Counted from the first letter of the stretch, positions 8,500 through 31,604 are shown. The stretch is DNA of 59,038 nt from Vicinamibacteraceae bacterium (GCA_011525805.1 WYBR01000011.1:1-59038); one strand, 5' to 3'. The notes: generated from the letters alone by a model not told the origin. Program-made: numbers and translations.

Positions 8500-9459
8500 A
8501 TGTTTGCCACCGCGACCGAGATCGTCACCATCACGCTCAACCCGGCGATCGACCGGCTCATCGAGGTGCGCGACTTCGCCGTCGGCCGGCACCAGATGGG
8601 AAGGCGCATCGACGTCTACCCGGCCGGAAAGGGCATCCGCCTCTCGCGCGTCCTCGCCCGCCTCGGCACGCGGAGCATCGCGACGGGATTCGTCGGCGAT
8701 CGCGAACTCGACCTCTTCGAGTCGTTCCTCAGCGCGCCCGCCGCGGGGCGAGCCGTCTCGCAGATGCTGCGCGTCAATCAGCCGACGCGCGAAAACGTCA
8801 CCATCGTCGATCCCATCAACGACCGCTCGACGTACGTGCGCGAGGAGGGCTTTCAGATCACTCCGAAGGACCTCGAGCGTATTCAGGGGAAGATCGGTCT
8901 GATGGCCCGCGACGAGGCGATCCTGTGCTTCTGCGGGTCGATTCCCCCCGGCCTGAGCGTGGAGGTCTTCCGGGAGATGGTGCAGCGGGCCATCCACGCC
9001 GGCGCCCGCGTTCTGCTCGACACCTTCGGCGAACCGCTTGAAGCGACGCGCGACTTGCCCGTCTGGATGATCCGCATGAACCGGACGACGGCGGCGCAGG
9101 TCGCCGGCCATCCGATCACCACGCGCGACGAAGCGCTGGAGATGACCCGGTTCCTCGCGCGGAAGGGAGCGATGGCGGCCGTCACCGTCGGCGCGGAAGG
9201 GGCCGCGCTCACGGTTCCCGGCCTCGCGTGGGTCGGCCACGTCGGGATTCACCCGGGCCTGGTGATCAACACCGTCGGCTGCGGGGAGAGTTTCGTGGCC
9301 GGCCTCCTGCATGAGTGGCGCCGCAGCGGCGACTGGGCCTCCGCCTTCCGCGAGGGACTCACCGTCGCCACCGTCAACGCGACGACCGTGCGCTCGGGCG
9401 AGATCGACGCGGAGACGCGCGAGGAGTTCCGTAAACTCACTGTGATCGAGGCGCGGTAA
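8500..9459 (+). CDS. PfkB-family sugar-phosphate kinase (1-phosphofructokinase/LacC-like) with altered catalytic residue
   Basis: This 319-residue protein has ribokinase-fold features: TLNPAIDR at the N-terminus, PAGKGIRLSRVLARLG (substrate-binding region, usually GGKGINVARVL), CGSIPPG mid-protein, and the C-terminal NTVGCGESFVAG anion-hole motif. Hexose-phosphate kinases of the FruK/LacC group normally read GAGD there, with Asp as catalytic base. This protein has Cys-Gly-Glu, with Glu at residue 263. RLS for NVA in the substrate motif is also unusual. It may be a kinase with changed specificity or a regulatory pseudo-kinase. Confidence 0.8.
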   Translation: MFATATEIVTITLNPAIDRLIEVRDFAVGRHQMGRRIDVYPAGKGIRLSRVLARLGTRSIATGFVGDRELDLFESFLSAPAAGRAVSQMLRVNQPTRENVTIVDPINDRSTYVREEGFQITPKDLERIQGKIGLMARDEAILCFCGSIPPGLSVEVFREMVQRAIHAGARVLLDTFGEPLEATRDLPVWMIRMNRTTAAQVAGHPITTRDEALEMTRFLARKGAMAAVTVGAEGAALTVPGLAWVGHVGIHPGLVINTVGCGESFVAGLLHEWRRSGDWASAFREGLTVATVNATTVRSGEIDAETREEFRKLTVIEAR

Positions 9460-9597: not shown

Positions 9598-9670
9598 GCC
9601 ACCGTAGCTCAGCTGGTAGAGCGGCGCATTCGTAATGCGCAGGTCGTGGGTTCGAGTCCCACTGGTGGCT
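9598..9670 (+). tRNA. tRNA-Thr (CGT anticodon)
   Basis: This 73-nt cloverleaf has acceptor arms GCCACCG and TGGTGGC, an anticodon loop TTCGTAA (anticodon CGT, decoding ACG) and a T arm GTGGG-TTCGAGT-CCCAC. No CCA is encoded. Its 3' part from the anticodon loop onward is duplicated at 19593-19634, so the gene is the insertion site of the element and its 3' half is now supplied by element DNA. The T-rich tract expected behind the tRNA is found only after the distal copy. Confidence 0.97.
9629..9670 (+). repeat. attL core (42 bp), in the tRNA-Thr 3' half
   Basis: It runs from TTCGTAATGCGC to CCCACTGGTGGCT and is identical to 19593-19634. The flanking bases differ on both sides (A versus G before, C versus T after), which defines the core exactly. 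Confidence 0.95.
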
Positions 9671-9689
9671 CATTCACAACCCTAGCCGA

Positions 9690-9762
9690 ATCCGCAACTT
9701 GCGGATACCCGTCGAAGCGACGGCGCGGCGTTCAGGAGCGGCAGCCCGTATCAGGTGATACG
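9690..9762. promoter_or_regulatory. Left-end candidate integrase/excisionase binding sites
   Basis: Two perfect palindromes lie between attL and the integrase gene: ATCCGCAA-c-TTGCGGAT (9690-9706) and CGTATCA-gg-TGATACG (9747-9762). The second is nearly repeated at the right end of the element (19483-19497), as expected for arm-type sites. It could also be an operator for the integrase gene, whose start is 27 bp downstream. Confidence 0.5.
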
Positions 9763-9788
9763 AGCCGCCCAGACTGGAGGCCCCGCCG

Positions 9789-10997
9789 ATGGTCGATCAC
9801 CCATCGCCTCGAATCCCCAAACTGCGCCGGCAGAAGAACCGCGGCGGACCCGATCGCGCCTTTGTCGAACTCAGGGGCGAACGGTTCTACCTCGGCACGT
9901 GGGACAGCCCTGAGAGCCGCGAGGCGTACCGCCGCACGATCGCCGAGTGGCTCGCCACCGGGCAGCCGCCGGCGCGTGAGAAGCGAACGGGCGGAGCCGA
10001 CGCCCCGACCATCGCCATTCTTGCGGCCCGCTACCTTGAGTGGGCGGAGAAGTACTACCGCGATGCGCATGGGCAACCGACCGGGAGCGCCGAGACGGCC
10101 GCTGGCATTCTCCGCCCGGTAATTGCCCTCTACAAGACGCTCCCGGCCGCCGACTTCACGCCTCGATGCCTGGAGGCCTGCGCCGCCGAGATGGTCCGCC
10201 TCCGCTGGACGCGCAGGGGAGTGAACCGCGCGCTCGTGCGGATCCGCTCGATCTTCAAGTTTGGGGTGCGAGTGGGCATCGTCCCATCGGGCGTACATGA
10301 GGCGCTTCGCTCTGTGCCGGGGCTGAAGCGCGGCAGGACCGCAGCGGCCGAGACCAACCCGATTCTGCCGGCGCCTGAGCGGGCGATCGAGGCCGTCAAG
10401 CCCCACCTGTCTCGCCAAGTGCGGGCGATGGTGGACGTCCAACTCCTGACGGGCGCGCGGCCGGGCGAAGTCTGCATCATGCGGCCAGTCGATATCGACA
10501 TGACGGCGGCCGTGTGGCTCTACACCCCCGCCGACCATAAGAACGCCCATCGGGAGCAGGCGCGGACGATCTACCTCGGGCCTCGCGCACAGGCGATCAT
10601 CACTCCATTCCTGACCGGCCGCGCTGTCGATGCCTACCTGTTCAGTCCGATCGAAGCCGAAGCAGAGCGGCGGGCGGCATTGGCCGAGAAGCGAACGACA
10701 CCCTTGCGGCAGGGCAACAGCGCGGGCACGAACCGCCGGCGGCGCCCGAAGCGCCAACCCGGGCCCGTCTATGACACGGACTCCTACCGGCGAGCGATCC
10801 ATCGCGCGTGCGATGCCGCAGGCATCGACCGGTGGAGCCCGGGCCGGCTGCGGCACAACGCCGGGACGATGTTGCGCCGGGAGTACGGCCTGGACACCGC
10901 CCGGGCGATCCTCGGGCACCGCTCCACGGCCGTGACGGAGATCTACGCCGAGATCGACCGGGAGAAGGCTGTGGGTGTGATCGGAAAGGTGGGATGA
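9789..10997 (+). CDS. int: Tyrosine recombinase (integrase)
   Basis: This 402-residue integrase should catalyse site-specific integration and excision at the tRNA-Thr core. The N-terminal part (about 1-75) looks like a small arm-binding domain, about 80-175 is the SAM-like core-binding domain, and the catalytic domain follows. It shows LLTGARPGEVCIM (first Arg), SPGRLRHNAGTML (second Arg, with Gly where most enzymes have His), LGHRS and the nucleophile Tyr in TEIYAE. A GGAGG site precedes ATG 9789. Its place next to attL and downstream of a displaced tRNA terminator suggests that transcription from the tRNA promoter could enter it. Confidence 0.93.
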   Translation: MVDHPSPRIPKLRRQKNRGGPDRAFVELRGERFYLGTWDSPESREAYRRTIAEWLATGQPPAREKRTGGADAPTIAILAARYLEWAEKYYRDAHGQPTGSAETAAGILRPVIALYKTLPAADFTPRCLEACAAEMVRLRWTRRGVNRALVRIRSIFKFGVRVGIVPSGVHEALRSVPGLKRGRTAAAETNPILPAPERAIEAVKPHLSRQVRAMVDVQLLTGARPGEVCIMRPVDIDMTAAVWLYTPADHKNAHREQARTIYLGPRAQAIITPFLTGRAVDAYLFSPIEAEAERRAALAEKRTTPLRQGNSAGTNRRRRPKRQPGPVYDTDSYRRAIHRACDAAGIDRWSPGRLRHNAGTMLRREYGLDTARAILGHRSTAVTEIYAEIDREKAVGVIGKVG

Positions 10998-11000
10998 GCG

Positions 11001-11219
11001 ATGCTGAAACTCGCCGACTATGACGAGCCGCAACCGAAGCGCCGCCGCAAGGCGCCGCGTCTCATCGCGGGGATGCACTTCTGCGCGTGCGGGCAACCGA
11101 TGACCGGCGATCCACCGCAGTGCTTTGACTGCGGGCTGGCGGTGATCCCCTTCCCCTCGATACGGCGGTCCTCGCCGGAACCGACGACCCCCCACAACTC
11201 ATGGAGGCCAGGAGCATGA
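11001..11219 (+). CDS. Small zinc-ribbon protein A
   Basis: This 72-residue protein starts 3 bp after the integrase stop, with AAGGTGGG as ribosome site. It has a basic N-terminus (PKRRRKAPR) and a CxC...CxxC knuckle (FCACGQPM ... QCFDCGLAVIPFP), likely binding one zinc. It resembles the next gene's product in the segment ending CxxCGLA-I-P-P, so the two may be diverged duplicates. The function is unknown; by position it may help the integrase or regulate transcription. Confidence 0.6.
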   Translation: MLKLADYDEPQPKRRRKAPRLIAGMHFCACGQPMTGDPPQCFDCGLAVIPFPSIRRSSPEPTTPHNSWRPGA

Positions 11220-11416
11220 GCGCGACCATCCAGGAGCAACGGGAAACCTCGGAAGTGATCCCCACGGTCTGCGGCGTCTGCGGCGGCCGCATGGAGTGGC
11301 GGGCGCCCTTCGCGGTCTGCGCCGAGTGCGGCCTGGCGATCCCGCCGCGGCCCGTGATGACCGAATCGACAACGCGGCCAACGCCGGCGGCCGCTCTCAA
11401 CGCCGGTGGTAGGTGA
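11216..11416 (+). CDS. Small zinc-ribbon protein B
   Basis: This 66-residue protein overlaps the previous stop (ATGA-type overlap). ATG 11216 is preferred over 11201 because GGAGGCCAGGAG then acts as its ribosome site. It has a four-Cys ribbon, VCGVCGGRM ... VCAECGLAIPPRP, and a Thr/Ala/Pro-rich tail. The function is unknown. The shared CGLAIPP-type segment links it to zinc-ribbon protein A. Confidence 0.6.
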   Translation: MSATIQEQRETSEVIPTVCGVCGGRMEWRAPFAVCAECGLAIPPRPVMTESTTRPTPAAALNAGGR

Positions 11417-11439
11417 ACCCCAACATGAAAGGTGGAACC

Positions 11440-11979
11440 ATGTACAGACGACCGATCAGACTCTCAGACATCGAGATGGAAGGCGCTCACTATGAACAGA
11501 CGGGCCTGCGCGTCGTCGCCTGTGATGCTGACGCGATTCGTCTCTGGCGTGAACTCGGCGGAGTGGCCTTCAACACGGACAAGGCGTTCATCGAGCGTGT
11601 CGAGACCGACCGCTACGCCCCCGACCTGCCGCGCGGCACGCTGCTGCTGTGCATCGACGACCACTGCCACATCGATGAAGGCGACCTCAGTTTCTTCATG
11701 GGCAAGGGCGCTGAGGCGGCGCTCCTGTACGTCAGCATCGGCGACAATGGGGAGGAAGTCTTCACTCCGCCCGGCGCTGTGGAGGCGCTGCAAGACCTGT
11801 TCGACATCGACGACAACCGGACGTATTGCAGCATTCTCCTGCCCGGCGAGGATGGCAAGCCGTCGATCTACCTGCCGGCGAACCGCTACGCCCGCGCCGG
11901 CTTCGAGTCGGCTCCACCCCTGCCGACTGAACAGGGTGGCCGAGCCGAGGCCCTGAAGCCCCGACTCGCGACGGCCTGA
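11440..11979 (+). CDS. Unknown acidic element protein
   Basis: It is 179 residues from ATG 11440 (MYRRPIRLSDIEMEG), which has AAAGGTGG upstream; in-frame starts at 11413 (GTG) and 11425 are possible but lack a good ribosome site. The protein is acidic, with no signal peptide or membrane segment. The clusters DDHCHIDEGDLSFFMG and LFDIDDNRTY hint at a compact alpha/beta domain. I do not recognise the family. The position in the early, regulatory half of the element suggests an accessory protein. Confidence 0.65.
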   Translation: MYRRPIRLSDIEMEGAHYEQTGLRVVACDADAIRLWRELGGVAFNTDKAFIERVETDRYAPDLPRGTLLLCIDDHCHIDEGDLSFFMGKGAEAALLYVSIGDNGEEVFTPPGAVEALQDLFDIDDNRTYCSILLPGEDGKPSIYLPANRYARAGFESAPPLPTEQGGRAEALKPRLATA

Positions 11980-12090
11980 TAGCATCCCACGGCCAACCGG
12001 CCGCCGACGGGCGGCCGGGCGATCCGGCGCCGGCGCGGTTTCCACCTACGCCGCGTCGGCCCGGATCGCACTCTCGAAAGTAGGGACACA

Positions 12091-12591
12091 ATGACGAAGC
12101 ACATCGACCACACAGAGTCGCGGAAGATCATGCAGGAGCGGCTGCTCGCCGCGGCGTCGATCGAGGACATCGCCGAGGCCCTCACAGACGTATGGGAGTG
12201 CTACGAGCCGCAAGCCGACACACTGGCCGAGGCGGAACGCGATCGACTGCTCTCCCTCGGGCTGGCGATCTGGCGCATGCAGGAGGCGGTGCGGGTCGGA
12301 TCGCCGAAGGCGATCGCGGTGGCGCTCATGGAGGTCGGCGCGCGGCTGCAATCCCTCGAGGCATGGCCGGAGGTTGCCCCGAGTCAGGCACAGCGCGAGG
12401 AACTCAACTCATGGCGGGCCGGCCGCAAGCAACTGCGAGACGCGATCCGCGCGGTCAGAAACCAGCATGCGAACTGGAGCAATGAGCGAATCTTGAGGCA
12501 CTTTCGGAGCGATCAAACGCTGCTCGCGCGCTTCCCGAAGTCGCCCGGGAAGGACACAGTGAGGCGGGCACTGGCCGCGCCCAGCGGCTGA
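12091..12591 (+). CDS. Unknown helical element protein
   Basis: This 166-residue, mostly helical protein starts at ATG 12091 behind an AGGGA site. The first half (about 10-95) is Ala/Glu/Leu-rich. The last 50 residues (WSNERILRHFRSDQTLLARFPKS then DTVRRAL) resemble a helix-turn-helix or DNA-binding tail of the kind found in phage replication accessory proteins, but I cannot place it in a family. It is followed by a terminator-like hairpin. Confidence 0.6.
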   Translation: MTKHIDHTESRKIMQERLLAAASIEDIAEALTDVWECYEPQADTLAEAERDRLLSLGLAIWRMQEAVRVGSPKAIAVALMEVGARLQSLEAWPEVAPSQAQREELNSWRAGRKQLRDAIRAVRNQHANWSNERILRHFRSDQTLLARFPKSPGKDTVRRALAAPSG

Positions 12592-12617
12592 GCGAAGCGG
12601 CAATCGCAGATTTTCCG

Positions 12618-12648
12618 GCGGCGCAAGTCAGACCTGCGCCGCTTTCTT
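12618..12648 (+). terminator. Rho-independent-type terminator within the element
   Basis: GCGGCGCA (12618-12625) pairs with TGCGCCGC (12635-12642) and is followed by TTTCTTG. It separates the integrase-side genes from the replication genes and suggests two transcription units. Confidence 0.6.
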
Positions 12649-12706
12649 GCGCGGAACGGCCCGAGACTGATTGACGGCGATGCACAACGCGCGTCAAACT
12701 CTCGGC

Positions 12707-13027
12707 ATGACCGACAAGCAAGCAATCCAATCGGAGTACCTCTCCCTGAACGAAGTCTCGGCGATGCTGCCCGGCCGACCGGGGACCGGTGCGATCTGGC
12801 GATGGTGCCGCCGCGGCGTGAAGAGCCGCAGCGGCGAGCGCATCAGACTCCAGCACGCGCGGGCCGGCCGCAAGATCGTCGTCCAGCGTGGCTGGCTCGA
12901 TCGTTTCCTCAGCGACCTCGCAGCCTCCGACATGCCCGTGCTGGAGCGGGCAGCCTCGCCGGCGCCGAACCCCGAGCATGAGCGGGCCGTCGATGACCTC
13001 CGCCGTCGCGGTGTCGCGGTGAACTGA
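12707..13027 (+). CDS. DUF1580-like DNA-binding protein
   Basis: It is 106 residues from ATG 12707; starts at 12680 and 12671 (TTG) are alternatives, and none has a clear ribosome site. The core YLSLNEVSAMLPGRPGTGAI then WRWCRRGV resembles the helix-turn-helix of DUF1580/excisionase-like proteins common in planctomycete mobile elements: a SLxEAAxxLP helix, a Trp-Arg-Trp recognition helix and a beta wing ending KIVVQRGWLDRFL. It may act as excisionase or repressor. Directly upstream is a 12-bp motif (12682-12693) that recurs before the other HTH gene. Confidence 0.65.
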   Translation: MTDKQAIQSEYLSLNEVSAMLPGRPGTGAIWRWCRRGVKSRSGERIRLQHARAGRKIVVQRGWLDRFLSDLAASDMPVLERAASPAPNPEHERAVDDLRRRGVAVN

Positions 13028-13031
13028 AAAA

Positions 13032-13066
13032 ACGCCGCGCGAATCTTGGGTGATGGCGCGCGGCGT
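13032..13066. promoter_or_regulatory. Strong hairpin before the 43-residue ORF
   Basis: ACGCCGCGCG (13032-13041) and CGCGCGGCGT (13057-13066) form a perfect 10-bp stem. The A run before it makes a terminator on the minus strand. On the plus strand it ends one base before the GGAG ribosome site of the small ORF, so it could also control translation. Confidence 0.5.
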
Positions 13067-13079
13067 GGAGATCAATTCC

Positions 13080-13211
13080 ATGAAGCATAGGCAGACCAAA
13101 AAGAGCACGGGACTCTCACGCGAAGCGATCTGGTTTCGGCAGAGGATTGAGGAGGTCCGCCGACGCCGCCGACTGATGGCGCTGATCCGGCTGACGGGAT
13201 GGCGCCGGTGA
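13080..13211 (+). CDS. Small basic protein (43 residues)
   Basis: ATG 13080 has GGAG 10 bases upstream and the frame runs to a stop at 13211, overlapping the replication gene start (13199) by 13 bp. The product is very basic (MKHRQTKKSTGLSREAIWF then RQRIEEVRRRRRLM). Such a coupled leader ORF could set translation of the replication protein, or the peptide itself could bind nucleic acid. There is no homology evidence, so it may be chance. Confidence 0.4.
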   Translation: MKHRQTKKSTGLSREAIWFRQRIEEVRRRRRLMALIRLTGWRR

Positions 13212-14863
13212 CAAACGCGACCGCCACCATTCTCGCCGCCTGGGCTGAGCGCCTCGGCGTCTCCGATGAGACGCTCCAATGCCTCGGCTGCACCCTAGAC
13301 GGCGCCGGCAATCTGCGCTGGCCCGAGCGCGACGCCGATGGAGCGATCATCGGGTACTCCACCCGCTTCGACGACGGCAGCAAGAAGGCTGACGCCGGCG
13401 GGAAGAGGGGGCTGTGCTATTGCTCCCCGCTCCACCCTTACGCCGGCACCTCGCCGGATCAGCCGATCATTCTCGTGGAGGGGCTGAGCGACACCGCCGC
13501 GGCGACCGACCTCGGCTTCGACGCGATCGGCCGGCCGTCGGCGACGGGCGGCAATGCGCTCCTCGCGCCGCTCGTGAAGGACCGCCACGTCTGCATCCTC
13601 GGGGAGAATGACTCAGGAGCGGGCAAGGCCGGCGCCGAGAAGTGCGCGAACGAACTGCATGGGCAGGCGGCGAGCGTGAGGGTGCTCTTCCCGCCGGCCG
13701 AGCACAAGGATCTGCGGGCGTGGGTGGCCGCCGCCGGCCTCGACGTGGTGCGCCGCCACCTGGCGACGTTGATCGACGACTCGCCGCTCTGGAAGCCGCC
13801 CGAGCAGACGGGCGTGAGCATGAACGGCAAGGCGCGGGCGCCCGTGATCCGCCGCCTCGCCGACGTGGCGCCCGAGGCGATCGAATGGCTCTGGCCCGGT
13901 GTGATCGTTACGCGGGGCATCACCGGGATCGTCGGCGAGCCTGGCGAGGGCAAGAGCCTCTTCAGTGTGGACCTCGCGGCCCGCGTCTCAACCGGTGCGG
14001 GATGGCCCGATGCGCCCGGGCGCTACTTCGCGCCGCGCGGCGTCCTGCTCATCACGGCCGAGGACGCCCTGGCGAGCGTGGTGCGCCCGCGCCTCGACGC
14101 CGCCGGGGCCGACTGCTCACGCATCAATGCCCTTGACGCGGTGAAGGTCCGCGGCGAAGACGGCAAGCCCGTCGAGATGGCCTTCGACCTCACCGACATC
14201 GACGTGATAGAAGCGGCCGCCGACCGCACCGATGACCTCGGGCTCATCATCATCGACCCGTGGACGGCATTCCTGGGCAAGGCCAAGAGCAATGACGTCG
14301 GGGACACTCGGGCGCTCATGCGCCCCCTGCATCGACTGGCCGAGCAGCGGAACATCAGCATTGTGATCGTTTCGCACCTGCGCAAGGGCGAAGGCCGCGC
14401 CCTGCATCGGGCGGTCGGGTCGATCGGTTTCGTCGCCGCGGCCCGACTCGCATGGGGCATCACCCGCGACCGCGAGCACCCCGACGTCTTCCGCCGACTG
14501 ATGCTGCCGCTCAAGAGCAACTACTCCCCCGACAGCCGCGGCTTCGCGTACAGGATCGCGCCGCCAACGAACGGGCAGCACCCTCGCCTCGAATGGGAGG
14601 TAGACCGAATCGACGTGCCCGCCGATGACCTGATGAGCGGAGCCGCGGCGAAGCCCGGACCCGATCCCGATGAGCAGGATCGGGCCTGCGAGTGGTTGAG
14701 GACGGCCCTGTCCTCCGGTCCGCGCAAGGCCGCAGATGCGCTCGAGGAAGCACGAGAGGTTGAGTGCATCAGTCACCAGACACTCAAGCGCGCGCGGAAG
14801 ACGATCGGCGTCCAGGCGTACCGCCCCGAAAACCCCGGCCCGTGGTGGTGGCGACTCCCATGA
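13199..14863 (+). CDS. Toprim/RecA-like replication protein (primase-helicase type)
   Basis: This 554-residue protein has a Toprim-type region (IILVEGLSDTAAA near residue 92 and CILGENDSGAGKAG near 132). A RecA-like AAA_25 ATPase follows, with Walker A GEPGEGKS near 247, Walker B LGLIIIDPW near 348 and a VSHLRKGEG sensor-like loop near 397. The C-terminus (about 490-554) looks like a winged helix (ISHQTLKRARKTIG). This is the layout of RepA/primase-helicase proteins of plasmids, phages and satellites, so I infer it unwinds and primes the element origin. No catalytic primase palm domain is clear before the Toprim part. Confidence 0.8.
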   Translation: MAPVTNATATILAAWAERLGVSDETLQCLGCTLDGAGNLRWPERDADGAIIGYSTRFDDGSKKADAGGKRGLCYCSPLHPYAGTSPDQPIILVEGLSDTAAATDLGFDAIGRPSATGGNALLAPLVKDRHVCILGENDSGAGKAGAEKCANELHGQAASVRVLFPPAEHKDLRAWVAAAGLDVVRRHLATLIDDSPLWKPPEQTGVSMNGKARAPVIRRLADVAPEAIEWLWPGVIVTRGITGIVGEPGEGKSLFSVDLAARVSTGAGWPDAPGRYFAPRGVLLITAEDALASVVRPRLDAAGADCSRINALDAVKVRGEDGKPVEMAFDLTDIDVIEAAADRTDDLGLIIIDPWTAFLGKAKSNDVGDTRALMRPLHRLAEQRNISIVIVSHLRKGEGRALHRAVGSIGFVAAARLAWGITRDREHPDVFRRLMLPLKSNYSPDSRGFAYRIAPPTNGQHPRLEWEVDRIDVPADDLMSGAAAKPGPDPDEQDRACEWLRTALSSGPRKAADALEEAREVECISHQTLKRARKTIGVQAYRPENPGPWWWRLP

Positions 14864-14983
14864 GCACAGGTCCAAGTTACATTCAGGCTAACCGCGATTC
14901 CAGTGTAGAAACGCACCTTTAGGGGGCAGAGGTCCAAGACGGCCATATATAGAGAACCTGGCCCTCTGCTCCCCTGACCGACC
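14864..14983. other. Candidate replication origin downstream of the replication gene
   Basis: The longest spacer in the middle of the element carries a direct repeat AGGTCCAAG (14868-14876 and 14930-14938). It also has a 12-bp stem with one bulge (AGGGGGCAGAGG at 14921-14932 with CCTCTGCTCCCCT at 14963-14975), and the loop contains the AT-rich ATATATAGAGAA. Satellite elements often keep their origin next to the primase-helicase gene. The assignment is inference. Confidence 0.4.
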
Positions 14984-15313
14984 ATGCTGAGCACCACTCC
15001 AAACATCATTGGCGCGATTGAATCCGCCGCCCTCAGCCTGCGGTGCGGCGGCGATCCGCGCGTGGCGATCGAACGCCTGGACCTCGCCATGCGGATGCTC
15101 GCCGGCGTCGATCCCGGCGCCGTCGGCGAGTGCGCGGCCAATGAGCAGAGCATCCTCTCGGCCCGCAAGGTGCGCGACCTCGGCCGCCGCACTCAGCGGG
15201 GCAGCCGCGTTTCCGCGTCAAAAACGAAGGTACTCCCAGCCGGGGGTAGGCGCGCGGTGGCGAACGCGAGGCCCGCGCTTCCGCCAGACACTCCAACCCA
15301 ACCCGAGGGCTGA
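14984..15313 (+). CDS. Unknown small element protein
   Basis: This 109-residue protein starts at ATG 14984 with no strong ribosome site and ends immediately before the ATG of the zinc-ribbon gene at 15314. The N-terminal half is helical (IGAIESAALSLRCGG then AIERLDLAMRMLAG), and the C-terminal half is Arg/Pro-rich and probably disordered. I do not recognise the family. Confidence 0.55.
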   Translation: MLSTTPNIIGAIESAALSLRCGGDPRVAIERLDLAMRMLAGVDPGAVGECAANEQSILSARKVRDLGRRTQRGSRVSASKTKVLPAGGRRAVANARPALPPDTPTQPEG

Positions 15314-15526
15314 ATGAGCATTGAGCCTGCAAAACAAGAGGAATCATTGGGTTTCGTACGAGTGCGAGTGCCTTCGTGCCCGACATGCAAGGTGCGGATG
15401 TACGTCGCCAGCAGCCGGCGCATCGGCCGAACTGACAGCGCGGTGCGATTCTGGAAGTGCCGCAAGTGCGGCGCGACCGACAAGACCACCGGCGCGGCGC
15501 GGCCGCTCAACGTTACAGCCAAGTAA
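15314..15526 (+). CDS. Small zinc-ribbon protein C
   Basis: This 70-residue protein directly abuts the previous stop. It has SCPTCKVRM ... FWKCRKCGATDKTT, a four-Cys ribbon resembling transcription-factor-type zinc ribbons, so it probably binds nucleic acid. It is the third zinc-ribbon gene of the element. Confidence 0.65.
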   Translation: MSIEPAKQEESLGFVRVRVPSCPTCKVRMYVASSRRIGRTDSAVRFWKCRKCGATDKTTGAARPLNVTAK

Positions 15527-15568
15527 ACGACACCGCACAACGCGCGACAGCGCGCGGTAGGATGCAGC

Positions 15569-15832
15569 ATGGCGACGCGAACCATCACAAACGCGAGCAA
15601 GGTGCTGAAGGTGAACCTCAGCGATCCGCGCCAACTGGCCGACCGGCCGACTTTGAGCGTGAGCGACCTCGCCGCCATGCTCGAAACGAGCGAAGGGTAC
15701 ATCCGCAGCGAGATTCGCGCCGGCCGCCTGGAGGCCTTCGAGATCGCCGGCGGCTGGCGCACCACGTCAAGCGCGGTGGCCGCGTGGCTGGCCTCAAAGC
15801 GCATCGCCCCGAAGAAGACCATCGCACTGTGA
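15569..15832 (+). CDS. HTH excisionase-like DNA-binding protein
   Basis: This 87-residue protein starts at ATG 15569 (AGGA 7-8 bases upstream). LSVSDLAAMLETSEGYIRSE then IRAGRLEAFEIAGGWRTTSS is a MerR/excisionase-type winged helix (HTH_17). By position just before the capsid gene, with which it shares a GTGA overlap, it may regulate the structural genes or act as Xis. Confidence 0.75.
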   Translation: MATRTITNASKVLKVNLSDPRQLADRPTLSVSDLAAMLETSEGYIRSEIRAGRLEAFEIAGGWRTTSSAVAAWLASKRIAPKKTIAL

Positions 15833-17853
15833 AACGCCGCCCCATCCACCTTCGCGCCCCCGGTGATTCGACGCTCCAGGTCGATCGTGAAGCGGGCATC
15901 ATCCGGGGCGCGAGCGTGATTGCGGCCGGCCCGGCCCTCGGCCACGGCTTCGAGGTCGATGACGTGATGCTCCGCCAGGTGGCGCGGCATGCGCTCGGCG
16001 GCGTGCGCGTCGGCTTCACCCACGGCGCCGACGATGACCTCGAAACCCGCGTCGGCACACTCCGCAACCCCCGCCTGGACGGCAACCGCGTCCGCGCCGA
16101 CATCGCATTCGGTTCGTACTCCAAGTCAACCCCGAAGGGCAACCTGCACGACTACCTGCTCGCGCTCGCCGACGAAGCCCCCGAGTCCCTCGGGTTGTCC
16201 ATCGTCTTCGAGCCGGCCGACTTTGAGCGGCGCGACGGCAAGTCATTCGCCCGCGTCGCGCGGCTCGCCCGCGTCGATTTCGTCGGCGATCCCGCGGCCA
16301 ACCCGCGCGGTCTCCTCTCAACCCCCAACGAGGATCCCAACGTGAAAGTAACGAAAGAACTCCGGGCCGCGCTCGCCGCCCGAGGACTCGTCAGCCTCGA
16401 AGCGACCGACGAAGAGGCGCTCGCATTCGTCAAGTCCATGATCGCCAGCGCCCAGGGCGTCGGCGAGGGCGGCGACGGTGGTGACGGCGACGGCAGCGGC
16501 AGCGGCGGCGACGGCGGCGCCATGTCCACCGGCGTCAAGGCCGGCGTCGCCCTGGAGCGCAAGCGCGTCGCGCACATCCGCGGCGTCGCCCGCCAATTGC
16601 AACTCGGCGACGGATGGGCCCAGCAGCAGATCGCCGGCGGCTTCGAGATCGCCGCAGTGAACGACAACGCGATCAAGACACTGGAGCAGCGAACTATGGG
16701 CGGCCGCTTCAACCCCGGCGACCTGCACATGACGCGCGAGCCGGGCGACGGCCTGCGCGAAGCGTTCATCGACAGCATCGGCCTCAAGCGCGGCCAGAAG
16801 ATCGACAAGCCGCACGCCCGCGTCCGCGAACTCCAGGGCCGCTCGCTCCATGAGCAGTGGCGGTACTACCTGGAGCGCTCCCTCGGCGTCGATTGCACCG
16901 GCCTGGGCGCGGCCGCGCTGATGAAAGCGGCCTGCGACCCGCGTGAGTTTGCGAAACTCAGCGGCGGCGTCGTGGGGCACAGCACGAGCGACTTCCCGTC
17001 CATCCTCGCCGACTCCCTCAACAAGACCCTTCGCGCCGAGTACATGCTCCGGCCCGCCACGTGGCGCTTGTGGGCGGCGCAGAAGATGGCGCCGGACTTC
17101 AAGCAGGTGAGCCGCGCCATGCTGGCCGATGCGCCCGTGCCGCTGCTCACCGCCGAGGGTGCGGAGATTCAGCACTGCACCATCGGCGACTCGCGCGAGG
17201 TCTACACCCTCGGCACCTACACTCGCCAGTTTGCACAGACCTGGCAAAGCCTCGTTAACGATGACCTCGGCGCCTTCGACGGCCTGGAGCGTCGCCTTGT
17301 CCTGGCGGCACGCGCGATCGAGGATGACCTCGCCTACGCGCCGCTCACCGGCAATCAGACGATGACCGAGGATAACGTCGAACTGTTCCACACCACCCAC
17401 AACAACATCATCACGGGCACCAACTCCGGCCCGCCGAGTGTGGCGCAACTCGGCGCCATGCGACAACTGCTCGCGCGGCAGCAGGGCCCGGGCGGCAACT
17501 TCCTCAACCTCCAGGCGAAGGCGGTGCTGTGCCCCGTGGGGCTGCTCACGCTGGTCGAGCAACTCGTCATGTCCCTCGTCGATCCGGCGAAACAGAACGA
17601 CGCGGCGAATCCCGACTGGGTTCGGGCGCTCGTCCCCGTCGGCGATCCGCGCCTGGACCTTGACGACGCGACGAACTGGTATGTCGTGAGCGGCGACATC
17701 GACACCGTTGAGGTCTGTTTCCTCGAGGATGAGCCGGTGCCCGTGGTCGAAACGGACCAGGCGTGGGACGTGCTCGGCGTGCGCTACCGCGTCCGGCACA
17801 GCGTCGCGGCCCGCGCCATCGACTACCGCGGCCTCGCGCGAAACGATGGATGA
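15829..17853 (+). CDS. Prohead protease-major capsid protein fusion
   Basis: The real start is GTG 15829, which overlaps the upstream TGA (GTGA), giving 674 residues; the upstream open extension is antisense-like. Residues 1-165 resemble a phage prohead serine protease, with His65 (RVGFTH), Ser124 (ESLGLSIVFEP) and the VDFVGDPAANPRGLL ending as candidate active-site and fold markers. A Gly/Asp-rich linker (211-230) follows. The remainder matches Mu gpT-like major head proteins, notably VNDDLGAFDGLERR near 475 and a GNQTMTEDN ... LFHTTHNN stretch near 515. The protein would build and process its own capsid. Confidence 0.85.
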   Translation: MKRRPIHLRAPGDSTLQVDREAGIIRGASVIAAGPALGHGFEVDDVMLRQVARHALGGVRVGFTHGADDDLETRVGTLRNPRLDGNRVRADIAFGSYSKSTPKGNLHDYLLALADEAPESLGLSIVFEPADFERRDGKSFARVARLARVDFVGDPAANPRGLLSTPNEDPNVKVTKELRAALAARGLVSLEATDEEALAFVKSMIASAQGVGEGGDGGDGDGSGSGGDGGAMSTGVKAGVALERKRVAHIRGVARQLQLGDGWAQQQIAGGFEIAAVNDNAIKTLEQRTMGGRFNPGDLHMTREPGDGLREAFIDSIGLKRGQKIDKPHARVRELQGRSLHEQWRYYLERSLGVDCTGLGAAALMKAACDPREFAKLSGGVVGHSTSDFPSILADSLNKTLRAEYMLRPATWRLWAAQKMAPDFKQVSRAMLADAPVPLLTAEGAEIQHCTIGDSREVYTLGTYTRQFAQTWQSLVNDDLGAFDGLERRLVLAARAIEDDLAYAPLTGNQTMTEDNVELFHTTHNNIITGTNSGPPSVAQLGAMRQLLARQQGPGGNFLNLQAKAVLCPVGLLTLVEQLVMSLVDPAKQNDAANPDWVRALVPVGDPRLDLDDATNWYVVSGDIDTVEVCFLEDEPVPVVETDQAWDVLGVRYRVRHSVAARAIDYRGLARNDG

Positions 17854-17865
17854 TTCATGTCGGAC

Positions 17866-17899
17866 CCCGGGCGCGGCACTTCGCGGCGCCGCGCCCGGG
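17866..17899 (+). terminator. Strong hairpin after the capsid gene
   Basis: CCCGGGCGCGGC (17866-17877) and GCCGCGCCCGGG (17888-17899) form a perfect 12-bp stem, followed by TGTCTCTTTC. It starts 12 bp after the capsid stop codon. It may attenuate read-through into the last two genes or protect the capsid mRNA 3' end. Confidence 0.65.
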
Positions 17900-17937
17900 T
17901 GTCTCTTTCACCCCGCCGCGAACATGGAGCCGCGACC

Positions 17938-18306
17938 ATGCTCATCATCGACTTCGACCCCAAAGCAACCGCCCGCGTCGTCGCCATGCTTCAGGAGCAG
18001 CAGCCGGACGTAAGCACCCTCCTGAACGCCGCGGCGGTGAATGTGATCGCCGCCTGCGAGCAGGTCATGCGCGAGCGGCCGGTGTCGGCGTCCGATGAGC
18101 AGGAAGAGGCCCGTGCCGGCGCCGTCCTCGAAGTGGGGATCGGGTGCGTCCGCTGGATCATCGACGCCCATCGCCGCAACGTGCAAGGGAAACTCCCCGC
18201 CGACTTCCAGGCGATGACCGTCGAGGCGGCGCTCGAAGCCGATGAACTCGGCCGGGACATCGTGCGCTTCCGCCCATTGGAGATCCAGAAGACAGGCGGT
18301 GAATGA
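17938..18306 (+). CDS. Unknown structural-region protein
   Basis: ATG 17938 (MLIIDFDPKATARVVAML) has GGAG upstream and gives 122 residues. The open frame to 17857 crosses the hairpin and is unlikely to be translated. The protein is helical and acidic, without recognised motifs. Its place between capsid and tape-measure-like genes suggests a head completion or tail assembly role, which is inference. It overlaps the next gene by ATGA. Confidence 0.6.
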   Translation: MLIIDFDPKATARVVAMLQEQQPDVSTLLNAAAVNVIAACEQVMRERPVSASDEQEEARAGAVLEVGIGCVRWIIDAHRRNVQGKLPADFQAMTVEAALEADELGRDIVRFRPLEIQKTGGE

Positions 18307-19445
18307 TGGCACAGACCTCCCGCGACGTTGAGATCGGCCTGAAAGCCCGCGACGCCTACAGCGGCGAGTTTGAGAAACTGAGCAAGCGCATCGAGGGCGT
18401 GCGCCGAGAGACAGCCGCCTACGCCCGCCAGATTTCGGCGCAGACGAAGAGCATGGCCGGCGACGTCGCCCGGAGCATCTTCGGCGTCGAGAAAGGCATG
18501 CGCGCGATCGACGATTCATTCAAGGCCGTCACCACATCCATCGAGGATTTCCGCCGCGGATCAATCACCGCCTTCGACGCCGCGATGCGCAGCGCGGAAG
18601 GCTTCATCGAATCTCTCCAGAAGATCCCGGTTGCCGGTTCCCTCGGCTCACTCCTAGCCCAGGGCGTCGATGCGATCATGCCCGGTTTGAGCATGGCCGA
18701 TGAGGCGCGCAACCGCGCCGCCGTCGATGCGCTCATTGAGCGGACCGCGATCGAGGAGCGAATCGCCAACGAGCGCGAAGCGATTGCCGAGCGGTCCGCC
18801 GCGGCGATCAAGAAGACCGGCGAGGCGATCCGCAAGCAACTCGAGATTGAGTCCATCTCCACTACCGACCGCCTCGGGACCGAAGGCTTCGACCGCCGTA
18901 TGGCACAACTCCGCCAGGAGGAACTCGACCGCTTCGCCGAACTGAAACGGCTGCGCGAGGCGGCTTCCGATGACGCTCAGCGCGCTGAGATCGACCGTCT
19001 CAAGAAACACCTCGGCGATCTCTTTGACCTGCGGTTCCAGGCGCTGCGCGATGAGCAGGCACGGGAAGTCTTCGCGATGCAGGAGGCCCGCCGCGCCGAG
19101 CACGATCGCCACCGCGCCGAACTTGACCGTCGCCTGGAGCGGGAGCGCGAGGCCGCCGCACGCGAAGCGGAGATCCAGCGCCGTGCCCGCGAGGCGGCCG
19201 CCGCGGATGAACGCCTGCGAGCCTTCAATGCGAGTCGGCTGAATCCGGGCATCGAGGCGATCGAGGGCCGCTTCATCACCCGCGCGCCGCAGAGCGCCTT
19301 CGCTGAATCCAACAGCCACGAGGCGCGGCGGATCGCCGAACTCAAGCAACTCATGCGAGAGCACTTGGCCGAGACGAAGCGCACGAACGAGTCCCTCGCC
19401 CGCATCGAGCGCGACAAGACCATCATCCGCGTCGAGAACAACTGA
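18303..19445 (+). CDS. Coiled-coil, tape-measure-like protein
   Basis: This 380-residue protein begins RDVEIGLKARDAYSGEFEKL, a pattern like the start of phage tail tape-measure proteins (modified 'A-D-x-S-x-x-F' helix). It then has a short hydrophobic stretch (VAGSLGSLLAQGVDAIMPGL near 110-130) and a long Arg/Glu/Ala coiled coil (about 150-300). The C-terminus HEARRIAELKQLMREHL is again helical. At 380 residues it is very short for a tape measure, so any tail would be stubby; it may instead be a scaffold. It overlaps the previous gene by ATGA. Confidence 0.6.
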   Translation: MMAQTSRDVEIGLKARDAYSGEFEKLSKRIEGVRRETAAYARQISAQTKSMAGDVARSIFGVEKGMRAIDDSFKAVTTSIEDFRRGSITAFDAAMRSAEGFIESLQKIPVAGSLGSLLAQGVDAIMPGLSMADEARNRAAVDALIERTAIEERIANEREAIAERSAAAIKKTGEAIRKQLEIESISTTDRLGTEGFDRRMAQLRQEELDRFAELKRLREAASDDAQRAEIDRLKKHLGDLFDLRFQALRDEQAREVFAMQEARRAEHDRHRAELDRRLEREREAAAREAEIQRRAREAAAADERLRAFNASRLNPGIEAIEGRFITRAPQSAFAESNSHEARRIAELKQLMREHLAETKRTNESLARIERDKTIIRVENN

Positions 19446-19458
19446 CCGCCCGGCGCGA

Positions 19459-19497
19459 GTGATACGCTACCTCGCGCCCGACCGTATCAATGATACG
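19459..19497. promoter_or_regulatory. Right-end candidate integrase arm sites
   Basis: The palindrome CGTATCA-a-TGATACG (19483-19497) and an extra half-site GTGATACG (19459-19466) match the left-end palindrome at 9747-9762. Paired sites at both ends of an integrase element are typical of arm-type binding sites for Int or Xis. Confidence 0.5.
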
Positions 19498-19526
19498 AAA
19501 CGGCGCGAAAAGTGGGGCAATGAGGG

Positions 19527-19555
19527 TTGACATACAACCGCCTCACCCTTATTAT
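19527..19555 (+). promoter_or_regulatory. Outward sigma70-type promoter at the right end of the element
   Basis: TTGACA (19527-19532), a 17-bp spacer and TATTAT (19550-19555) make the best promoter match I noticed in the window. GGTTG-acata-CAACC overlaps the -35 box as a possible operator. It points out of the element 38 bp before attR. In the integrated state it has no gene to drive, but after circularisation it would face the integrase gene. Confidence 0.6.
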
Positions 19556-19592
19556 TTCATTGAGGAACGCCGATTGGCAGAATCGGGCCGGG

Positions 19593-19634
19593 TTCGTAAT
19601 GCGCAGGTCGTGGGTTCGAGTCCCACTGGTGGCT
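19593..19634 (+). repeat. attR core (42 bp), tRNA-Thr 3' fragment
   Basis: It is identical to 9629-9670 and followed by TTTTTTG, which is probably the original terminator of the tRNA gene. It lacks the acceptor and D arms and is therefore not a functional tRNA. Confidence 0.95.
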
Positions 19635-20931: not shown

Positions 20932-20975
20932 GAGCCGCGTCTCCGCCGCCAACATGCGAGATGCGGCGGGCGAAC

Positions 20976-21071
20976 GGGAGTGGATGGGAATCGAACCCAC
21001 CTGGAGCCTGTTTTCCAGACACCACAACGGGTTTGAAGCCCGTGACCGCCACCAGGCGTGCTGACACTCCC
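20976..21071 (-). tRNA. selC: tRNA-Sec (TCA anticodon)
   Basis: This 96-nt minus-strand tRNA has acceptor arms GGGAGTG/CACTCCC, an anticodon stem-loop ACGGGC-TTCAAA-CCCGT (anticodon TCA) and a long variable arm, with T arm GTGGG-TTCGATT-CCCAT. The long variable arm, extended acceptor and UCA anticodon mark selenocysteine tRNA. No CCA is encoded. It lies 50 bp behind selA, so selB, selA and selC are contiguous. Confidence 0.95.
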
Positions 21072-31289: not shown

Positions 31290-31465
31290 GCCCCGTGTCA
31301 GTGGCAGGTCTTCCGGCTCAGAGTCTCCCGCGACCGCCTTCCCGCGGGGCCGTCGGCCCGGCAGTGGCGAGTGGTCGCGGGCGGCCCGGGAAGTTGAATC
31401 CCGGGCAACCCATTACGGCGGCGCGTCCGCGGTGGATTTGCACCACGCTTCCCATTTCAGCCCTC
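31290..31465 (-). promoter_or_regulatory. Cobalamin riboswitch
   Basis: The minus strand reads GGGAAGCGTGGTGCAAATCC, then ACCGCGGACGCGCCGCCGTA, a loop-rich middle with GCCCGGGA...TCCCGGGC, and ends in GAGCCGGAAGACCTGCCAC. These match the conserved 5' core (GGTGnAAnTCC) and the B12-box end (AGCCnGGAnACCTGCC) of cobalamin riboswitches in order and spacing. Downstream hairpin CGCCG-gaag-CGGCG (31268-31281) could be part of the expression platform. It lies upstream of the beta-propeller gene and should repress the operon when cobalamin is bound. Confidence 0.92.
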
Positions 31466-31604
31466 CCGCCTCGGCGCCCGCGGGCGTCGGGGGCGAGAAG
31501 GACGCCCTTGACGATCGACTCTACAGGCGCGTGGGACGGCGGTCAACAGGCGGGGCAAGGGCGGGCGCCTCGCTGGGGGTTGATTGGGGTTTTTGGCCGC
31601 CTCG

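Follow-up and report, generated by a model that had tools for sequence, protein, structure and literature searches.

A mobile element of 9,964 bp was found integrated in the tRNA-Thr(CGT) gene of a Phycisphaerales bacterium, at positions 9598-19634 of the 59,038-nucleotide stretch of DNA that was analysed (the window). The element is probably a phage satellite resembling the phage-inducible chromosomal islands (PICIs) in both layout and workings. For the copy in the window this is the best available explanation, likely but unproven, because the element was inserted as a unit, has a PICI-like layout and no packaging motor, and has a parallel in a capsid-only family under selection (CAPo, described below); the satellite label of a preliminary description of the same DNA was kept at that strength. 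The features that define the element are as follows (window coordinates; aa, amino acids; HTH, helix-turn-helix).

9598-9671, + strand: tRNA-Thr(CGT), the integration target (ARAGORN, Rfam; empty site in two congeners)
9629-9670, + strand: attL core, 42 bp, an exact repeat of 19593-19634, equal to the 3' part of tRNA-Thr(CGT)
9789-10997, + strand: tyrosine integrase, 402 aa (Pfam PF00589, Phage_integrase, 5.7e-14; PHROG 1, 1.8e-25)
12671-13027, + strand: HTH_17-like DNA-binding protein, excisionase/AlpA-like in position and type (weak HTH_17 match below the cut-off)
13199-14863, + strand: REP replication protein, 554 aa, with a primase-like N-terminus and an AAA_25/RecA-like domain (Pfam AAA_25, 2e-30; PHROG 239, primase/helicase, 1.3e-23)
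15829-17853, + strand: prohead protease-major capsid fusion, 674 aa (profiles, alignment and predicted structure)
19593-19634, + strand: attR core, 42 bp, an exact repeat of 9629-9670

The two att copies are identical at 42 of 42 positions, as had been described, and are the sole exact 20-mer repeat between positions 9000 and 20500. The joined flanks of the element were searched in the six nearest genomes as an empty-site test. In two genomes of the same genus (L194 and L195) the tRNA-Thr gene is followed, at most about 70 bp on, by the gene of the right flank and tRNA-Sec, and the element is absent; its entry as a single unit of 9,964 bp follows from this.

Profile searches were run with Pfam and PHROGs on the ten open reading frames (ORFs) of the element (E≤1). 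All assigned genes lie on the + strand with the integrase at one end, and the length is at the lower edge of the PICI range. Terminase, portal and lysis families were not matched by any of the ten ORFs, no gene is broken and nothing is visibly degraded. The preliminary description had reported the integrase, the protease-capsid fusion and the lack of terminase, portal and lysis genes, with all parts intact within 10 kb, and these points held. Its Toprim-RecA-like replication gene held in part: the AAA_25 domain was matched and the N-terminal third of REP matched PHROG DNA primases, on which the Toprim label rests, but Pfam Toprim was not matched. Relatives of REP occur in 39 of 101 genomes of the order, many of them in tRNA-linked integrase elements that have no capsid. 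The HTH protein scored 12.5 bits against HTH_17 (weak, under the 27-bit cut-off); its relatives occur in about 30 genomes of the order, and one of them adjoins a REP relative and an integrase.

The capsid gene matched Phage_capsid_4 (5e-40) and the PHROG 'major head and protease protein' (4e-100), and the NCBIfam protease/capsid fusion model matched across the capsid half at 8e-103, under the model's own cut-off. The reading frame is open through 674 codons, and the protein most likely starts at the GTG at 15829. The predicted model (predicted local distance difference test, pLDDT, 79; 28 sequences) has an HK97 fold at residues ~320-674, with Z up to 14.6. His65 is nearly invariant in the capsid alignment, and Ser124, in a GLSI motif, is read as the ASVG serine of other capsids after a three-residue alignment shift; H65 and S124 are thus candidate catalytic residues of the fused protease.

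The preliminary description had proposed a new satellite type with an unprecedented combination of genes, on the ground that known capsid-encoding satellites keep more packaging genes. That ground was wrong. Among 29 reference Gram-negative PICIs, a major capsid gene is present in 21 and is the most frequent late gene (PMC10111431). SaPIbov5 makes Ccm, a homologue of capsid proteins by which assembly of the helper's shell is redirected; Ccm provides every pentamer of a T=4 shell built on the assembly line of the helper (PMC8569155). Given these precedents, a capsid without packaging genes does not make a new satellite type, and the claim of novelty fails against the PICI literature.

Gene order in Gram-negative PICIs is integrase, HTH, replication gene, origin and late genes, all in one direction (PMC6092414, PMC10111431). 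The window element shares with EcCICFT073 and PmCI172, both of this group, a size of ~10-20 kb, a specific att site, an integrase, a putative HTH regulator, a primase/replication gene, the single direction and a capsid among the late genes. It differs in belonging to Planctomycetota rather than Gammaproteobacteria, in its protease-capsid fusion, in its AAA_25 replication protein and in the weakness of its HTH_17 match. It also shares with SaPIbov5 a satellite-encoded capsid-protein homologue (PMC8569155), but Ccm is homologous to the capsid of the phi12 helper, whereas the window capsid has a fused protease and no helper with a close capsid was found. The capsid-forming PICI (cf-PICI) EcCI2 is likewise a satellite with its own HK97 capsid, which was among the structural matches of the window capsid. 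The cf-PICIs bring their own packaging and head-completion genes, whereas no recognisable portal, terminase or head-completion gene was found beside the window capsid (Pfam, PHROGs). Charybdis elements (PMC12324425) have no hallmark in common with the window element. No paper on satellites of Planctomycetota was found in the literature searched, which does not mean that none exists.

By analogy with Ccm of SaPIbov5 (PMC8569155) and with PmCI172, whose heads are small and which encodes a capsid homologue (PMC6092414), a small shell would be built on the portal of a helper and filled by its terminase. When a helper phage becomes active, the element would excise and replicate from the spacer behind REP. 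The protease-capsid protein, alone or mixed with helper subunits, would then assemble the small shell on the helper portal, and the helper terminase would fill it with the ~10-kb genome of the element. As candidate helpers, the host genome contains resident phages with six portals and five GpA terminases in all; portal family PF04860 was not found there, and its phages use PF05136.

Capsids related to that of the window were found at 91 places in 101 genomes of the order. A lambda-type portal lies within 6 kb at 70 of these, and 21 have no portal at that distance, a few of them at contig ends. Of the other 20 capsids with no portal nearby, most fall into a single clade, CAPo (SH-aLRT 99, the Shimodaira-Hasegawa-like approximate likelihood-ratio support, in a quick tree). 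CAPo elements are ~11-kb elements of Phycisphaerales with no terminase or portal and with a conserved gene order (d8, sigma-like protein, CAPo, primase/helicase, recombinase). The median dN/dS of the CAPo gene was 0.106 (19 copies; 171 non-independent pairs), so that the shell gene is maintained by purifying selection. Between genomes from three GTDB families the protein shows 94-100% identity, a figure to be read with the binning of metagenome-assembled genomes (MAGs) in mind, yet one copy lies in a chromosome record (CP054186). Nearly all records with a CAPo capsid are Phycisphaerales MAGs; among 392 genomes spread over the phylum, nine gave strong CAPo matches, two of them outside the order. 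The family gives support to the idea that, in Phycisphaerales, a satellite can work with a capsid but no packaging motor. Membership of the window capsid itself in the CAPo clade was unsupported by the tree (a quick tree, in which the window branch is long).

A 3.2-kb d8-sigma-CAPo block was found with two backbones, one with a tyrosine recombinase in tmRNA and one with a large serine recombinase. Elements of the first type, at the 3' end of tmRNA, are L175:4074-14875 (CP054186), L173, L176, L177, L178 and L097; they carry variable restriction cargo, and their att repeats are 26-29 bp in five mapped cases and 16 bp in the sixth. Across the family the cargo varies between elements and is often restriction-modification or a similar defence. 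For the nine CAPo elements whose ends were mapped, the length is 11.1 kb (sd 0.55), not far from the window element's 9.96 kb; a limit on head size could account for this near-constant size, among other explanations. The second CAPo copy of the CP054186 chromosome (L188, ~2.07 Mb) is decaying, with its capsid frame split. As a hidden portal or scaffold, d8 was rejected, because the only resemblance of its model (pLDDT 92) was a weak one to a MerR-like winged helix (Z 6.7, 55 residues).

The CAPo elements of IMG/VR contigs are embedded in phages with a related capsid of their own; because the database selects for viral sequences, the frequency of such embedding is not to be judged from it. At L200:5922-17569 an element of 11.2 kb, which contains a restriction gene and a tRNA-Val-like sequence, separates two halves of the tail-tube gene (Phage_tail_2) at about residue 77 (also in L199 and L211). 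The terminase gene of two phage lineages (L218/L221 and L214/L215) is interrupted at residue 317 by ~10.4-kb CAPo elements, the serine recombinase of which continues in frame into the rest of the terminase (L218:5335-18039, L214:2110-14712). In L212 and L222, CAPo elements come after the capsid gene and after the tape-measure gene. In all these cases satellite and phage are physically paired, in the manner of the helper-embedded PICIs (HE-PICIs), the elements of L200, L214 and L218 lying, as HE-PICIs do, in terminase or tail genes of phages (PMC10111431). CAPo elements differ from HE-PICIs in their large serine recombinase, their phages with Phycisphaerales-type capsids, their protease-capsid fusions and their restriction systems; the window element differs in sitting in tRNA-Thr and not in a phage late gene.

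Taken together with the window element, these loci lead us to propose, tentatively, that Phycisphaerales may hold a distinct and large guild of satellites in which a protease-capsid fusion is the only head gene. The design would have arisen at least twice (window lineage and CAPo clade); the size of ~10-12 kb would be set by a self-encoded small shell, the portal and terminase of the helper would be used, and one branch would control its helper from inside the terminase gene through a serine recombinase. The proposed wider guild of capsid-only satellites is the more interesting result. Described phage satellites come from few cultured groups. If the proposal is true, capsid-bearing satellites extend to Planctomycetota, where the capsid-only design has been used at least twice, and elements of near-constant size with exchangeable restriction cargo allow a test of whether the satellite capsid sets genome size. 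The phages with a CAPo element in a terminase or tail-tube gene offer specific satellite-helper pairs.

Several observations weigh against the satellite reading of the window element. The capsids nearest to its own (35-40% identity) belong to full prophages and viral contigs (L031-L034, L021, L024). No close sibling with the same gene order, which the preliminary description had expected to be sought in related genomes, was found in 400 genomes of the order, so that selection on the window capsid is not measurable; peptide patterns gave no relative of it in GTDB contigs. The capsids of the resident prophages are only ~26-27% identical to it over the aligned part. TerS (small terminase subunit), cos and pac were not found in the element, the 380-aa last gene had no homologue in Pfam, PHROGs, NCBIfam or ~100 loci, and the E. 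coli PICI EcCICFT073 is transferred even without its capsid gene (PMC6092414).

The element is rather unlikely to be the dying remnant of a complete prophage from which the terminase-portal and connector-tail block was deleted. Its capsid groups with those of prophages that have terminase and portal, the element is single copy, the order of capsid, small gene and coiled-coil gene would fit a collapsed head-tail region, and decaying copies occur in the parallel CAPo family (L188); but it has no broken ORF, exact att repeats and regular spacing, its REP type belongs to small tRNA elements and its gene order matches that of PICIs. Ordinary prophages of Phycisphaerales, which encode a GpA terminase, a lambda-type portal and a protease-capsid fusion, share one capsid superfamily with the window element, which differs in having no terminase, portal, connectors or recognisable tail genes. 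Decay from a prophage keeps some probability because there is no close sibling and the capsid branches among prophage capsids. A single degraded copy of a larger prophage had been named in the preliminary description as the contrary case: the copy is indeed single and its nearest capsids lie in full prophages, but degradation is not visible. The simplest history is that an integrase-REP chassis common in Phycisphaerales captured a phage capsid gene, the source of which may have been a phage related to L031-L034/L021; the chief alternative is a prophage that has shrunk. L105 was undecidable as a sister element, its contig ending in the capsid.

It is improbable that the element is a satellite or defence element whose capsid acts as an interference factor, poisoning or resizing helper heads, or is a dispensable captured gene. 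Precedents are Ccm of SaPIbov5 (PMC8569155) and the capsid genes of Gram-negative PICIs (PMC6092414), and the CAPo family carries restriction systems; however, the fused protease is kept with H65/S124, beyond the needs of a pure decoy. The element is very unlikely to be a tiny but complete phage in which terminase and portal escape recognition: several ORFs have no assigned function, but the spare ones are too small (70-188 aa), save for the 380-aa coiled-coil-like protein, which has no ATPase family match. Least probable of all is a domesticated encapsulin-like shell, since encapsulins are among the closest folds only in a tie by Z with phage capsids and the EcCI2 capsid, the sequence families are those of phage head and protease, encapsulins have no fused protease such as that with H65/S124 here, and in this mobile-element setting no cargo-enzyme gene was recognised (Pfam, PHROGs).

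The remaining features of the element, which is best read as a PICI-like satellite, are given below.

9747-9762, no strand: left TGATACG pair (CGTATCA..TGATACG), possible integrase/excisionase arm sites (motif location)
11001-11416, + strand: pair of small ORFs, 72 and 71 aa, that overlap and have paired-cysteine motifs (ORF list only)
11440-11979, + strand: 179-aa protein, function unassigned, alternative start at 11413 (relatives of 38-43% identity in one congener)
12091-12591, + strand: 166-aa protein (no family in Pfam/PHROGs)
14864-14983, no strand: candidate origin, a spacer 3' of REP that is richer in AT and holds an inverted repeat and two copies of AGGTCCAAG (composition)
14984-15526, + strand: two small ORFs, 109 aa and a zinc-ribbon-like 70 aa (sub-threshold zinc-ribbon matches, Pfam)
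15569-15832, + strand: 87-aa excisionase-like HTH immediately 5' of the capsid gene (sequence appearance; no family match)
17865-17900, + strand: strong GC hairpin directly 3' of the capsid gene (sequence)
17938-18306, + strand: 122-aa protein, function unassigned, 149 aa from an upstream start (overlaps the next start by ATGA)
18303-19445, + strand: 380-aa coiled-coil-like protein, the last gene (no homologue found)
19460-19497, no strand: three TGATACG sites at the right end (motif location)
19527-19555, + strand: near-consensus sigma-70-type promoter TTGACA-17-TATTAT, directed outward across attR (11/12 matches)

The spacer at 14864-14983 has 56% GC against a mean of 67.7%, within the lowest 1.3% of the 120-bp stretches of the element, and holds one 9-bp direct repeat pair. 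The preliminary description had called it origin-like; in composition and repeats it is a candidate replication origin, but clear iteron sets were not seen and the evidence is suggestive only. The short tape-measure-like gene of that description was found as an intact ORF, the 380-aa coiled-coil-like one; as it has no detectable relatives, the label is unproven and reflects appearance only. Sensitive phmmer searches against the ~100 loci returned nothing for either the 122-aa or the 380-aa protein. In a search of 201 genomes with one chimeric query made of the orphan genes, clear relatives outside the window were obtained only for the HTH and the 179-aa protein. For a TerS role of the 87-aa HTH there was no evidence for or against.

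TGATACG occurs five times in the window, each time close inside an end of the element (the motif was tested only after it had been noticed), and this is the placement expected for integrase or excisionase arm sites, a possible role for these clusters. On the excised circle, the right-end promoter would be directed at the integrase.

A tRNA-Sec gene lies beside the insertion site (20975-21071, − strand) and is conserved there in two congeners. Among the prophages of the order, a tape-measure identity for all c3 genes was ruled out, two of them being group II intron reverse transcriptases; at L038:4928-7829 a group II intron, in which reverse transcriptase, maturase and HNH domains were recognised, interrupts a prophage tail-tube gene. 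In G030, a single contig of 7.4 Mb, about a dozen copies of one prophage capsid type are present, several of them ~80 kb apart. A cobalamin riboswitch is found at 31303-31478 of the window (− strand).

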